From Sediminivirga luteola (GTDB taxonomy: Bacteria; Actinomycetota; Actinomycetes; Actinomycetales; Brevibacteriaceae), in NCBI RefSeq assembly GCF_014639315.1, contig NZ_BMFY01000005.1:62001-126000 (forward strand): a stretch of DNA of 64,000 nt. The letters run 5' to 3'. Under the pieces are notes generated by a model, which made no database searches, was not told where the DNA came from, and worked only from the letters and a program-made list of their open reading frames with translations. The position numbers and the translations under genes are program-made. Numbering within the stretch: the first letter of the stretch is position 1; every line of letters starts with the position of its first letter. Shown piece by piece: positions 22,745-27,315 of the stretch.

Positions 22745-24400
22745 GTGCGTTTGGCATTCGGCGTCATCACCGCCGTCGTGGGCGCGCTCCTCGCAGTCCT
22801 GGGGACGCTCCAACTGACACTCTGGGCGCCGGAGGAGAACGTCGTGGTCACGGCGGATCCCGGTGAAGCGCCCCTGGTAGTGATCCAGCCGGGAGTGCTC
22901 AACCTCTACGACACCCCGGCGGAGCTGACCGTCCAGGGCGAGGGCCAGATCACCATCGCGCAGGCCTCCAAGGAACACGTCGACGCCTGGGTGGGAGACA
23001 CCACGCACGCCTCCGTGCCGGGGCTTGCCAGCGAGACTCAGCTGCGCGTGGACCAGGTGGAAGGGGAGGCCGAGACGGCACCAGATCCGGCCGGAGCCGA
23101 TCTGTGGACCAGCGAGGTCACCGGCGAAGGCACCGCGGAACTGCGCTGGGACGCCGAGCCGGGCCGCACCGCGTTCCTGGTCGCCTCCGACGGCGAGAGC
23201 CCGGCGGCGCAGTCCATCACGGTCGCTTGGCCCAACGACGAGGGAACGCCCTGGGCCATCCCGCTCATCGTCATCGGCGGCCTGATCTTCCTGGCCTCCG
23301 GCTGGTTCTTCTACACGCACATCCGTCGTGCCCGCGAGGCCGCACGCCGCCGCGCCGAACGGCAGCAGCGCCGCCGGCGGCTGGCCGAGACCGGCACCGC
23401 GCTCATGGTCGTCGGCACGCTCGCCCTGGCCGGATGCGGCGGCGAGCCCGAGCTTCCCGTCCCCTCGCCGGAGCCAGAGCCCACCGAGGCGCAGCCGGCC
23501 CTCAGCCCGGAGCAGGCCGAGCGGATCGTCGCCGCCATCGCCGAGGACGTCGCCCGGGCCGATGAGGAACTCGACGCAGGCGCGCTCGACGCCCGTGTGT
23601 CCGGGCCCGCCCGCGCCGTCCGCGAGGCGGCCTACCAGGCCCGTGAGACGACCGAGGAGGTCTCTCTCCCGCCGGCCGTGGCCGCCGATGAGATCGCGAT
23701 CAACCACGTCACCGCCACCGACTCCTGGCCGCGGGTCACGACCGTCGTGACCAACTCCGAGGACCCGGCCCAGACCCAGTACCTCAACCTGATCCAGGAG
23801 ACGCCGAGGGACGACTACCGGCTGTGGTCCCAGACCGTCCTGTTCGGCGGCGCCACCGTGCCCGAGACCCAGGACCCCGCCATCGGCGCCCCGCTGCTGG
23901 CCGCCGATCAGCCCGGCCTGGTGCAGACCCCGGAGGAGGCGGCCCGGAACTACGCCGCCGCGCTGGGCGATGAGGAGGCCGAGGAGGCACAGGGCTTCGA
24001 GGAGGACGACTTCCGCAACGCCGTGCTGCGCAACTCGGCCGAGACCGCTGAGGCGCTCCAGGAGGGCAACGCGGACTTCTCCCGCAGCTACGAGGCGCAG
24101 GAAGGCGATCTGGTCGCCACCGGAACGCTGGACAGCGGCGCGCTCGTCACGGCATACCTGACCTCCACCACGCGGCTCTCGCCCGAGGAGGAGGACGGCC
24201 GCACCGGTTCCCTGACGCTGGGCAGCCCCATCTCCGATCTGCTCGGCGAGGACGAGGTGTCCAGCCCGGTCGAGACCACCACCGGTGTCACGGTGACGTT
24301 CCTGGTGCCCCCCGCCGGCTCGGAGGACAGGATCACCGTGCTGGGTGCCACCGAGGTGCTGACCGGTGCCCGCGAAGTGGACGACGCGGACGATACTTAA
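22745..24400 (+). CDS. Fused membrane/lipoprotein-type envelope protein, unknown function
   Basis: A 551-residue protein with two modules. Module 1: helix 1 (1-25), an outside beta-rich domain (~26-165), helix 2 (~169-190) and a very basic cytoplasmic stretch (RRAREAARRRAERQQRRRR). Module 2: a third helix (MVVGTLALAG) ending in Cys231 within a perfect lipobox (LAG-C), a Pro/Glu linker, then an outside helical/beta domain to the end. The two modules correspond to the separate proteins at 25442-26263 and 26260-27315 (compare PLVVIQPGVLNLY with PLVVGEVHALTLN, and LAGC/LTGC). GGAAGG precedes the GTG start. A TAGGGT -10 lies at 22681-22686. It heads an operon with a thioredoxin-TPR protein. Confidence 0.78.
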   Translation: MRLAFGVITAVVGALLAVLGTLQLTLWAPEENVVVTADPGEAPLVVIQPGVLNLYDTPAELTVQGEGQITIAQASKEHVDAWVGDTTHASVPGLASETQLRVDQVEGEAETAPDPAGADLWTSEVTGEGTAELRWDAEPGRTAFLVASDGESPAAQSITVAWPNDEGTPWAIPLIVIGGLIFLASGWFFYTHIRRAREAARRRAERQQRRRRLAETGTALMVVGTLALAGCGGEPELPVPSPEPEPTEAQPALSPEQAERIVAAIAEDVARADEELDAGALDARVSGPARAVREAAYQARETTEEVSLPPAVAADEIAINHVTATDSWPRVTTVVTNSEDPAQTQYLNLIQETPRDDYRLWSQTVLFGGATVPETQDPAIGAPLLAADQPGLVQTPEEAARNYAAALGDEEAEEAQGFEEDDFRNAVLRNSAETAEALQEGNADFSRSYEAQEGDLVATGTLDSGALVTAYLTSTTRLSPEEEDGRTGSLTLGSPISDLLGEDEVSSPVETTTGVTVTFLVPPAGSEDRITVLGATEVLTGAREVDDADDT

Positions 24401-24409
24401 ACAGTGACG

Positions 24410-24428
24410 CACCGGCGCGACGCCGGTG
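24410..24428 (+). terminator. Perfect 8-bp hairpin between the fused protein and thioredoxin-TPR genes
   Basis: CACCGGCG (24410-24417) pairs with CGCCGGTG (24421-24428) across a 3-nt loop in the 62-bp intercistronic gap. It lacks a T-run. It may act as a partial terminator or mRNA-processing stop that sets different levels for the two genes. Confidence 0.45.
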
Positions 24429-24462
24429 GGGTAAGAACCACACGCTGACCGAGGAGACGAGT

Positions 24463-25422
24463 ATGACGAGCCCCTTCGCCCCGGAGCCGGAGCAGCCGCG
24501 CACCGAGGGCATCGATCTGTCCGCTGCCCGCTCCGTCCCGCGCGAGCCCGGCGCCGATGCTGCCGTGCCGGGAACGGCCGCCGCCCAGCCCGGGCCCGGC
24601 GAGGTCGCGGTCCCGGCCCTCGTGATGGACGTGACCGAGGAGACCTTCAACGCCGTGGTGGAGCTCTCCGCCGAGGTGCCGGTCGTGATCGACCTGTGGG
24701 CCGACTGGTGCGCCCCGTGCAAGCAGCTCAGCCCCATCCTGGAGCGGGTCGTGGAATCCCACGGCGGCAAGGTGATCCTGGCCAAGGTCGACATCGAGGC
24801 GAATCCGCGGCTGCAACAGCTGTTCCAGGCCCAGTCCATCCCGACGGTCGTGGCGATCGTGAAGGGCCAGCCGGTACCGCTGTTCCAGGGCGCGCTTCCC
24901 GAGCCGCAGGTGAAGCAGTACTTCGACGAGCTGCTGAAGCTCGCCGCCGCCAATGGCGTCAACGGCCGCGCGGTCGTCGCCGGCGGCCAGGAGCAGGGCG
25001 AGCCGGCCCAGACCGTCAAGCATCCGGAAGCCCTCGACGCGCTGGAGCGCGGTGACCTGGACGCCGCCGAGGCCGCCTACTCTGCCGCCCTGAAGGAGGC
25101 TCCGGCCGACGAGGAGGCACGCGTCGGGCTGGCCCGCACCGGTCTGCTCAAGCGCGTCCGCGGCCTGAGCCTGGACGAGGCCCGCAAGGCCGCCGCCGAC
25201 GACCCCGGCAGCGTGGACGCCCAGCTCGCCGTCGCGGATCTGGACGTGGCCGGCGGGCATGTCGAGGACGCCTACGCCCGCCTGATCGAGTTGATCCGGC
25301 GCACCGCCGGCGAGGAACGGGACCGGGTGCGGCTGCGCCTGCTGGATCTGTTCGAGGTGGTCGGCAGCGAAGACCCCCGCACGGTCCGCGCCCGCTCCCA
25401 GCTGATGCGTGCCCTGTTCTGA
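24463..25422 (+). CDS. Thioredoxin-domain protein with TPR tail (CnoX/YbbN type)
   Basis: A 319-residue cytoplasmic protein. After a ~50-residue acidic lead comes a thioredoxin fold (DVTEETFNAVVELSAEVPVVIDLWADWCAPCKQ) with the redox motif WCAPC near residue 82-86 and the cis-Pro in SIPTVVAI. From ~190 onward are helical TPR-like repeats (ALERGDLDAAEAAYSAAL, LDEARKAAADDPGS, DAYARLIELIRRTAGE). Related CnoX/YbbN proteins hold oxidised or unfolded clients and pass them to GroEL or DnaK. The CxxC pair here could also support reductase activity. GAGGAGA precedes the ATG. The gene lies between two homologous envelope modules, suggesting a shared operon role. Confidence 0.9.
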   Translation: MTSPFAPEPEQPRTEGIDLSAARSVPREPGADAAVPGTAAAQPGPGEVAVPALVMDVTEETFNAVVELSAEVPVVIDLWADWCAPCKQLSPILERVVESHGGKVILAKVDIEANPRLQQLFQAQSIPTVVAIVKGQPVPLFQGALPEPQVKQYFDELLKLAAANGVNGRAVVAGGQEQGEPAQTVKHPEALDALERGDLDAAEAAYSAALKEAPADEEARVGLARTGLLKRVRGLSLDEARKAAADDPGSVDAQLAVADLDVAGGHVEDAYARLIELIRRTAGEERDRVRLRLLDLFEVVGSEDPRTVRARSQLMRALF

Positions 25423-25441
25423 CAGGGGTGCATGAGAACCG

Positions 25442-26263
25442 GTGAACTCCACGCTGCTGAAACTCGTCCCGGCCGCCGTGGCCCTGGTGCTGGGCGCGGT
25501 GGTCCTGACCCTGGCGCTGCGCGCTGGGCTGACGGCCGGGGCGGACGACACGCTGCGCTCGGAACCGCTGGTCGTGGGGGAGGTGCACGCGCTGACCCTC
25601 AATGAGGGCATCGTGCCCTTCCGCAACACCACGGCCACCGTCTCGGTGGAGTCGGAGGAGCCGGTGTTCCTGGGCGTGGCGAACCCCGTCGACGTCGCCA
25701 GCTACCTGGGCGGCGTGGCGGTGGAGGAGATCACCGAGGTGCAGGTGCCGGGTGAGCTGAGTCACCGGCAGGTGCCCGGCGAGAACGAACCGCCGGCGCC
25801 GCCCGGCGACCTGGACTGGTGGGCCGGCTCCCAGACCGGCACGAGCGTGGCCCACAGCTTCGACGTCGACGCCGAGCCGGGCATGGTCGTCCTGCTCGGA
25901 GCCGAGGGGCAGCCGATCGAGGACGCGCGCGTGACGGTCACGGTGGAGACCGATGGCGTCTTCGGCCTGAGCCTGATGGGCGTGGCGCTCGCCTCGCTGC
26001 TCTTCGGCGTCGCCGCGTTCCTCGCGCTGACCTGGTGGTACGACCGCATCCGCCTGGCGCCCCGGCGATCTGCCGGTGAGAGGCGCTTCCCTCGTCGTCC
26101 CGCCGAACGCGGCGCGCCGTCTCGGCTGGACCGGCGAGGACGCGACCGTTCCAGCGGAGCTGCCGGTGTTCTCGGGGGCCTGCGGAATCGCGTCGCGGGT
26201 GCCGGGCGTGCCGTCCGCCCCGGAGCATCCCGTCGCTCGTCCGGCTCCAGGAGGCGCCGATGA
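25442..26263 (+). CDS. Two-helix envelope membrane protein, split paralogue of the fused protein's N-module
   Basis: A 273-residue protein: helix 1 (~8-30), an extracellular beta domain (~35-175), helix 2 (~180-203) ending in WWYDRIRL, and a long Arg-rich cytoplasmic tail (~205-273). The outside part aligns by eye with residues ~26-165 of the protein at 22745-24400. Matching segments are DLDWWAGSQTGTS with ADLWTSEVTGEGT, and FDVDAEPGMVVLLGAEG with LRWDAEPGRTAFLVASDG. GTG start at 25442, no strong ribosome site. It overlaps the next gene by 4 nt (ATGA). The function is not known. The Arg-rich tail may interact with nucleic acid or acidic proteins, which is speculation. Confidence 0.78.
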   Translation: MNSTLLKLVPAAVALVLGAVVLTLALRAGLTAGADDTLRSEPLVVGEVHALTLNEGIVPFRNTTATVSVESEEPVFLGVANPVDVASYLGGVAVEEITEVQVPGELSHRQVPGENEPPAPPGDLDWWAGSQTGTSVAHSFDVDAEPGMVVLLGAEGQPIEDARVTVTVETDGVFGLSLMGVALASLLFGVAAFLALTWWYDRIRLAPRRSAGERRFPRRPAERGAPSRLDRRGRDRSSGAAGVLGGLRNRVAGAGRAVRPGASRRSSGSRRRR

Positions 26264-27315
26264 TGTCTCAGCTGCCTCAGCCTTTCCGTCCGGGCCGCCC
26301 TGCCGGCCTAGCTGGCCCCGCCCGCCTCGCCGACCCGCGCCGCTTATCCCGTCGCCGCGGGTTCGCCGCCGCCGTGGCCGCGGCTGGGGCGCTGGCGCTC
26401 ACTGGCTGCGACGCGCTGCAGGTGGCGCAGCCGGAGGCCCCGGAAGTGCCGCCGCCTTCGAAGGTCGCCGCCCAGCCCGACCAGGCCGCCGAGTTCCTGG
26501 CCGGGTACTCCGATCGTCTCGGTGAGGCGCTTGGCCAGGACGGCGAGGGCCTGGAGGATCTGCAGGCGGCGCCGCTGCTGGAGCGCACCCAGGCCGAGCT
26601 GCTCATCGCCGAGGCCTCCGACGAGACACTCGCGTCCATGTCCTACGTCGACATCATCCCGGCGGCCCCCATGCTCAGCGAGTACCCGCTGTGGTTCATC
26701 GCCGTCGCCACCCCGTACAACGCCGAGGAATCCCGGCAGATCATGCTGGTGAGCCGGGAGAACGCCGCGGGCTCCTGGCGGGTCAACCAGACCGCGTTCC
26801 TCCAGGCGGACGCGGTGCCGGTCTTCCTGGGCGACGGGGAAGGCGCGGTCGAGCCGGCCGAGCCCGGGTTCACCGAACGGGCGCGGCAGGCGGAGGAGCA
26901 GCTGGCGGGGTTCCTGGCCGGCGGCGATGAACCGTCGGCGGCCGCCGTGGATTCGCAGGCTTTCCAGGATTACCGCGACTACCAGGGCGAACTCAGTGAT
27001 CCGGAGAACGGCTTCGACGACGTGTCCGCCGAATGCGCGCCCTACTCATCCTCTCAGGAGCCGCTCCTGGAACGGGCGCTGAGCACCCAGGACGGCGCCA
27101 TCGCGCTGGGAGAGGTGCGCTGCACCCTGCAGATCTCCGTGGGCGAGGAGTTCGCCTTGAACCTCGGGCCCGCCGTGGAAGCCGTCATGACCGGCGACGG
27201 CACCGGCAACACGGTGCAGGTGTCGACCTCGCATCCCTACGTGGTGACCGAGACCGACGGCGAACTCACCCTGCGCGCCACCGACTGGTACCTGCTGGAA
27301 GCGGTCACGGACTAA
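26260..27315 (+). CDS. Lipoprotein, split paralogue of the fused protein's C-module
   Basis: A 351-residue predicted lipoprotein with an unusually long, basic N-region (~1-33, containing RRLSRRRGF). The hydrophobic core GFAAAVAAAGALALTG ends at Cys50 in the lipobox LTG-C. The outside domain (EFLAGYSDRLGEAL, SMSYVDIIPAAPMLSEYPLWFIAVATPYN, QIMLVSRENAAGSWRVNQTAFL) parallels residues ~231-551 of the fused protein at 22745-24400. The twin RR before the hydrophobic stretch raises a possible Tat route. AGGAGG lies 5 nt before the ATG, which overlaps the upstream stop. Its TAA overlaps the stop of the convergent hydrolase gene. Confidence 0.8.
   Translation: MMSQLPQPFRPGRPAGLAGPARLADPRRLSRRRGFAAAVAAAGALALTGCDALQVAQPEAPEVPPPSKVAAQPDQAAEFLAGYSDRLGEALGQDGEGLEDLQAAPLLERTQAELLIAEASDETLASMSYVDIIPAAPMLSEYPLWFIAVATPYNAEESRQIMLVSRENAAGSWRVNQTAFLQADAVPVFLGDGEGAVEPAEPGFTERARQAEEQLAGFLAGGDEPSAAAVDSQAFQDYRDYQGELSDPENGFDDVSAECAPYSSSQEPLLERALSTQDGAIALGEVRCTLQISVGEEFALNLGPAVEAVMTGDGTGNTVQVSTSHPYVVTETDGELTLRATDWYLLEAVTD

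Follow-up and report, generated by a model that had tools for sequence, protein, structure and literature searches.

The window analysed here, a 64,000-nt stretch of the Sediminivirga luteola genome, contains a four-gene locus encoding a fused membrane protein, a thioredoxin-TPR protein, and a split pair of proteins that resemble the two halves of the fusion. We use N for the half composed of a transmembrane (TM) helix, a beta domain, a second TM helix and an Arg-rich tail, L for the lipoprotein half, and Y for the thioredoxin-TPR gene (ybbN). Judging from the sequences, we propose, with a probability of roughly 0.6, that the locus holds two copies, separated long ago, of an undescribed exported N-L pair, that copy 1 is cut as a polyprotein, and that N and L form one membrane complex. 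As in the original prediction, the four genes lie on one strand (forward), and the list of open reading frames (ORFs) agrees on their coordinates: 22745–24400 (551 aa, fused), 24463–25422 (319 aa, Y), 25442–26263 (273 aa, N copy 2) and 26260–27315 (351 aa, L copy 2).

The 551-aa chain was thought to hold counterparts of the proteins starting at 25442 and 26260, and sequence comparison bears this out. A genome search with the fused N half recovered the 25442 protein at an E-value of 3e-8 (28% identity). Profile-profile alignment of these two, with 10 sequences each, gave E 5.2e-18 over 192 columns, and that of the fused C half with the 26260 protein gave E 1.1e-9 over 285 columns; both are significant, whereas a mismatched control pairing the copy 1 N with the copy 2 L gave E 0.24. 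Going beyond the original prediction, the fused protein was found to carry its own second-half lipobox in the middle of the chain, with no plausible start codon for a separate L. Neither Pfam nor NCBIfam contained a match to N. The locus as a whole fits no described system or annotated family, and the module remains as unmatched as first reported.

Assigned by its ORF, homology, tree position and an AlphaFold2 model, the fused protein (copy 1, clade A; GTG start) could be divided into successive parts. The model has a mean pLDDT of 85 and is poor only at residues 207–234, the linker and signal, and at the last three residues. Residues 2–24 (22748–22816) form the first TM helix, recognized both in the model and by sequence hydrophobicity, followed by the predicted exported domain of N (residues 30–166; 22832–23242), a beta-sandwich in the model that weakly matches known beta-sandwich folds (Z 5–6). 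The second TM helix (171–190) and an Arg-rich, presumably cytoplasmic loop (191–216) occupy 23255–23392, the model showing a helix from 171 to 206. The first half of L (residues 249–370; 23489–23854) matched six PARC6/ARC6 intermembrane-space domain entries at Z 10.4–11.3, with an rmsd of 2.6 over 107 residues, and classifies as NTF2-like. The likeness to PARC6/ARC6 is at the fold level: identity is 12–17% with no sequence family match, and L differs in having two such domains and a lipid anchor. The second half (residues 390–546; 23912–24382) has a helix-helix-beta order and weak matches to TraM and IcmL-like structures (Z 5.3–5.9). Solved structures were also sought by sequence for N and L, with none convincing.

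Copy 2 (clade B) encodes the same parts in two genes overlapping by 4 bases. N copy 2, assigned by profile comparison and tree, has the TM, beta domain, TM and Arg-rich tail arrangement, and its end contains AGGAGG (26249–26254, read from the sequence), the putative ribosome-binding site of the separate L. L copy 2 is a predicted lipoprotein with lipobox LTGC ending at Cys50 (26407–26409); the order of its structural elements is as in L copy 1, and its matches are mostly NTF2-like folds (Z up to 6.9). Two further cysteines of L copy 2, Cys259 (27034–27036) and Cys288 (27121–27123), are invariant in 30 aligned rows besides the lipobox Cys, and may form an exported disulfide. For N and L, the signal and TM segments support the "envelope" label that the module had been given.

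The part most deserving of specialist attention is the internal, highly conserved lipoprotein signal of copy 1. The fused chain reads TM1, beta domain, TM2, Arg-rich stretch, TALMVVGTLALAGC (the lipoprotein signal peptide), and then L. A positive n-region, a hydrophobic stretch and a lipobox ending in Cys are present in both the fused protein (RRRRLAETGTALMVVGTLALAGC) and L copy 2 (SRRRGFAAAVAAAGALALTGC). In L copy 2 they form an N-terminal signal peptide; the fused protein instead has its hydrophobic stretch and LAGC lipobox at residues 217–231 (23393–23437; Cys231 codon 23435–23437), with the lipobox itself at 228–231 of 551. The lipobox is kept in 100 of 106 non-identical fused ORFs, including all 82 of the Brevibacteriaceae-type family. 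The fused form occurs in many genomes, and a sequencing artefact was therefore rejected. Apart from Cys231, the window's fused protein has no cysteines, and the genome encodes Lgt (E 1.7e-69) and two LspA proteins (E 2.1e-28 and 4.1e-22; G000:C11:78662-79093 and G000:C20:44953-45366). Because the lipobox is kept, L has no usable start of its own, Cys231 stands alone, and Lgt and LspA are both encoded, a polyprotein processed by these two enzymes appears to be the likeliest product of copy 1.

In the proposed mechanism, copy 1 would insert with TM1, a beta domain on the outside, TM2, an Arg-rich cytoplasmic loop and then the internal lipoprotein signal peptide. After lipidation of Cys231 by Lgt, LspA would cut just before this residue, which would free L as a lipoprotein and leave the signal stretch on N as a third membrane segment; copy 2 would give the same products from its two overlapping genes. 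N would thus have two TM helices with its beta-sandwich outside and its Arg-rich tail inside, and L, a lipoprotein with tandem NTF2-like domains, would sit on the outer face of the cytoplasmic membrane. N and L would function jointly in a single membrane complex, and the thioredoxin-TPR protein, encoded in the same gene cluster, would be their cytoplasmic partner.

A comparable arrangement is the cytochrome b/c1 precursor FbcH of Bradyrhizobium, a polyprotein cut by signal peptidase, in which a membrane protein and an exported protein are likewise joined in one frame by an internal signal peptide. Copy 1 differs in that its internal signal is of the lipoprotein type, with a lipobox, and its cutting is predicted only; the proteins are unrelated. 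To our knowledge, lipoprotein signal peptides are regarded as N-terminal and disposable, and annotation tools search protein starts only. A search for internal lipoboxes in the collection of papers available returned none. If copy 1 is processed as proposed, it would represent a widespread natural internal lipoprotein signal, with the split paralogue as a built-in control in the same operon.

The signal stretch is also the most constrained part of copy 1. In 27 aligned copy 1 rows, the 23 residues ending at Cys231 had a mean entropy of 0.48 bits, compared with 1.25 bits in the beta domain and 1.29 bits in L, and the top-ranked of 529 windows along copy 1 all overlap this stretch. By contrast, in an almost identical set of species, the corresponding copy 2 stretch had 1.88 bits versus 1.42 for the copy 2 L domain. 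Arg202, 206, 209 and 210 are invariant in the 27 rows. Fourfold-degenerate sites in the linker were not more conserved (1.44 versus 1.25 bits); an RNA-level cause was therefore rejected, and the constraint acts on the protein. Another candidate was a sortase signal, the linker motif LAETG (23381–23395) being class E-like and present in many species. This was dropped because the motif varies between species (LAQMG, LAEYG or AATAG in others) and lies on the predicted inner side of the membrane.

Retention of the signal stretch on N after cutting may explain its high conservation. As a more specific version, the stretch could stay on N as a sequence-specific third membrane segment after the LspA cut, with the conserved cytoplasmic Arg-rich motif (RRxxR..RRRRLAETG) docking a partner, perhaps the thioredoxin-TPR protein; we consider this possible, although on balance we doubt it.

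The family names used for the distribution of the locus follow named relatives (Brevibacterium, also Arthrobacter and Microbacteriaceae), and the class-level picture was drawn from an L profile and the loci around its matches. The complete N1L1-Y-N2L2 layout was present in 18 genomes of the window's family, the window included, and in all 38 named Brevibacterium contigs spanning the locus; it was seen in this family only. A set of 21 loci (L032–L052), drawn from 20 further families of the order, had N and L as neighbours throughout; Y followed in all 20 loci that do not stop at a contig edge, giving a single-copy N-L-ybbN cluster. With a profile that included copy 2, at most one L was found in the other families of the order. 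The pair extends into other orders, as Y-N-L in two families (f24 and f98), as N-L followed by a mutase gene and then Y in another (f91), as a fused N-L without Y (f102), and as L alone in a Streptomyces-like family (f21). The four-gene order, whose conservation the original prediction had put forward as a check, is thus shared beyond this genome, but the unit conserved across the order consists of three genes and reaches other orders. N and L are fused in several lineages and adjacent when split, suggesting that they are one functional unit. Taken together, these genes represent a conserved actinobacterial pair with predicted folds and no annotation beside a CnoX-like gene, the function of which is directly testable in Brevibacterium.

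Several neighbouring genes were recorded. In the window, an oligoribonuclease gene lies upstream of the locus (divergent) and an alpha/beta hydrolase gene downstream (convergent). Elsewhere, thiolase, MeaB and methylmalonyl-CoA mutase genes often adjoin the ybbN/N-L cluster (L129, L130–L133, L138, L032, L035, L046 and L052). All five f102 loci (L140–L144; for example, L140:5355-5858) have an AhpC/TSA peroxiredoxin gene immediately before the fused N-L. In six loci of Streptomyces-like genomes (L147:4404-7566, L081, L082, L083, L086 and L087), DyP peroxidase and FTR1 iron permease genes come immediately before the SCO2278-type L.

Some of these observations weigh against a processed polyprotein that works as one unit. 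The fused f102 pair has no adjacent ybbN and the Streptomyces-like L has no N; the three parts are not obligatory partners. The six fused ORFs that lack the lipobox Cys, from Arthrobacter or grouping with it (loci L036, L149, L153, L201, L211 and L212), would favour processing: all six retain the hydrophobic stretch, and in five of them an A-x-A motif (AQA, AHA) comes next, which is suggestive of a switch to signal peptidase I. This last observation counts for little because A-x-A is common in Ala-rich stretches. Finally, ordinary cleaved signal peptides are rarely conserved this strongly, and the stretch may be a permanent TM segment. In that case the fused protein would remain uncut, with three TM segments, the third of which would anchor L whether or not Cys231 is lipidated. 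Conservation well above that of typical signal peptides, as seen here, might be expected of a permanent TM helix. Its hydrophobic part, however, is short and ends in a perfect lipobox in nearly all fused ORFs; a plain anchor needs no cysteine, and the split paralogue yields a separate lipoprotein. We therefore consider the uncut form rather unlikely.

The gene between the fused and split versions was described as a CnoX/YbbN-like thioredoxin-TPR protein, and its Pfam matches above cut-off agree (PF00085 Thioredoxin, 1.5e-19; PF14559, TPR_19, 1.4e-9; PF14561, TPR_20, 3.3e-23). The window's Y has WCAPC with Cys83 and Cys86 (24709–24711 and 24718–24720), fitting the W-C-x-P-C group described for Caulobacter CnoX (PMC6282202). 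It thus resembles the CnoX/YbbN chaperedoxins of E. coli and Caulobacter, a group marked by holdase activity and client transfer to GroEL/ES, in its thioredoxin domain, TPR_19/TPR_20 region and active-site motif, and differs in its genomic partners N and L and in that many relatives in this context lack the active-site cysteines. Among aligned Y sequences, CXXC was present in 42 of 57 rows from the window's family and absent from all seven f24 rows; in the order's other families, a minority of rows had it.

These counts bear on the suggestion that the four genes are a dedicated thiol-redox quality-control system for envelope proteins. The conserved neighbour gene has a thioredoxin fold, WCAPC is kept in the window's Y, and L copy 2 has its two conserved cysteines besides the lipobox; the peroxiredoxin gene before the f102 pair and the peroxidase and permease genes before the Streptomyces-like L point in the same direction. 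However, most other aligned families of the order, every one of the seven f24 loci and some Brevibacterium have lost the CXXC of the Y beside the pair, with the pair still adjacent. Because the adjacency outlives the cysteines of Y, the link between Y and the pair is probably not thiol chemistry. In addition, fused copy 1 has no cysteine other than its lipid site, and Y has no export signal, so that it would be on the opposite side of the membrane from L. A redox quality-control role is thereby weakened, and we consider such a system improbable; an oxidant link may still exist, given the AhpC/TSA, DyP peroxidase and FTR1 neighbours.

A separate L might also be made from the fused frame by an internal start codon, the fusion being a tight translational overlap only. 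In some fused genes an ATG does lie in frame, about 15 residues upstream of the cysteine. By contrast, in 42 of the 100 lipobox-bearing fused ORFs, the window's among them, the interval from TM2 to the signal offers no in-frame ATG, GTG or TTG from which a chain with a signal peptide could start. The window's only ATG in this interval leaves about 10 residues without a positive n-region. Split L copy 2 has both AGGAGG and ATG; fused L copy 1 has neither. Internal initiation is thus very unlikely.

To trace the history of the two copies, a tree was built from 81 concatenated N-L pairs, in which two clades separated at 100/100 support. Clade A comprises the N-L-Y pairs of the order, with copy 1 inside, next to f6 and f19; clade B comprises copy 2 with pairs from other orders (f24, f98, f91 and f102), mostly arranged as ybbN-N-L. 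A 43-row tree agreed. The confinement of two N-L pairs flanking ybbN to the Brevibacterium family might suggest that a recent tandem duplication of copy 1 gave rise to copy 2, which we reject as scarcely credible, since the copies fall in two fully supported clades and joining them costs 113.6 log-likelihood units (approximately unbiased (AU) test, p-AU 9.8e-87). A topology holding together all pairs from outside the order, with copy 2 arising within it, was weakly disfavoured (AU p 0.026, with long branches present). The exact neighbour of copy 2 is unsure because copy 2 lies on a long branch. Most simply read, these sequences suggest an old arrangement in which Y had an N-L pair on each side, one of which was lost in most lineages; transfer may be an alternative. 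The symmetry, first taken as that of a purpose-built duplicated unit, is therefore older and less special than it looked, given that the rest of the order has one copy (N-L-ybbN) and the two copies fall in two deep clades.

Among known families, the closest to L is the SCO2278 family lipoprotein NF053531, which scored 25.7 bits with L copy 1 and 35.8 bits with L copy 2, below its cut-off of 210. The alignments cover model positions 27–247 (E 4.9e-6) and 6–279 (E 4.1e-9) of 320, respectively, indicating homology along most of the model. Both L halves share with this family an exported lipoprotein nature and a similar length, and differ in that L is here fused to or paired with N, beside ybbN; a Streptomyces-like member (486.8 bits) adjoins the DyP peroxidase and FTR1 genes instead. 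Among the papers searched, SCO2278 appeared in one, depicted as a hypothetical neighbour of aor1. NCBIfam NF058595 (lipo-invert tail) was rejected at 20.8 bits, below its cut-off of 37, with equally weak matches across many loci and control genomes. For N, the closest likeness is to DUF4389 proteins of other Actinomycetota classes, in which an N-type TM-beta-TM domain precedes DUF4389; N differs in having a lipoprotein partner in place of DUF4389. This arrangement was seen at L107:1216-2856 (by Pfam match) and L119:700-2325 (alike by eye), and N-like proteins also stand alone in those Actinomycetota.

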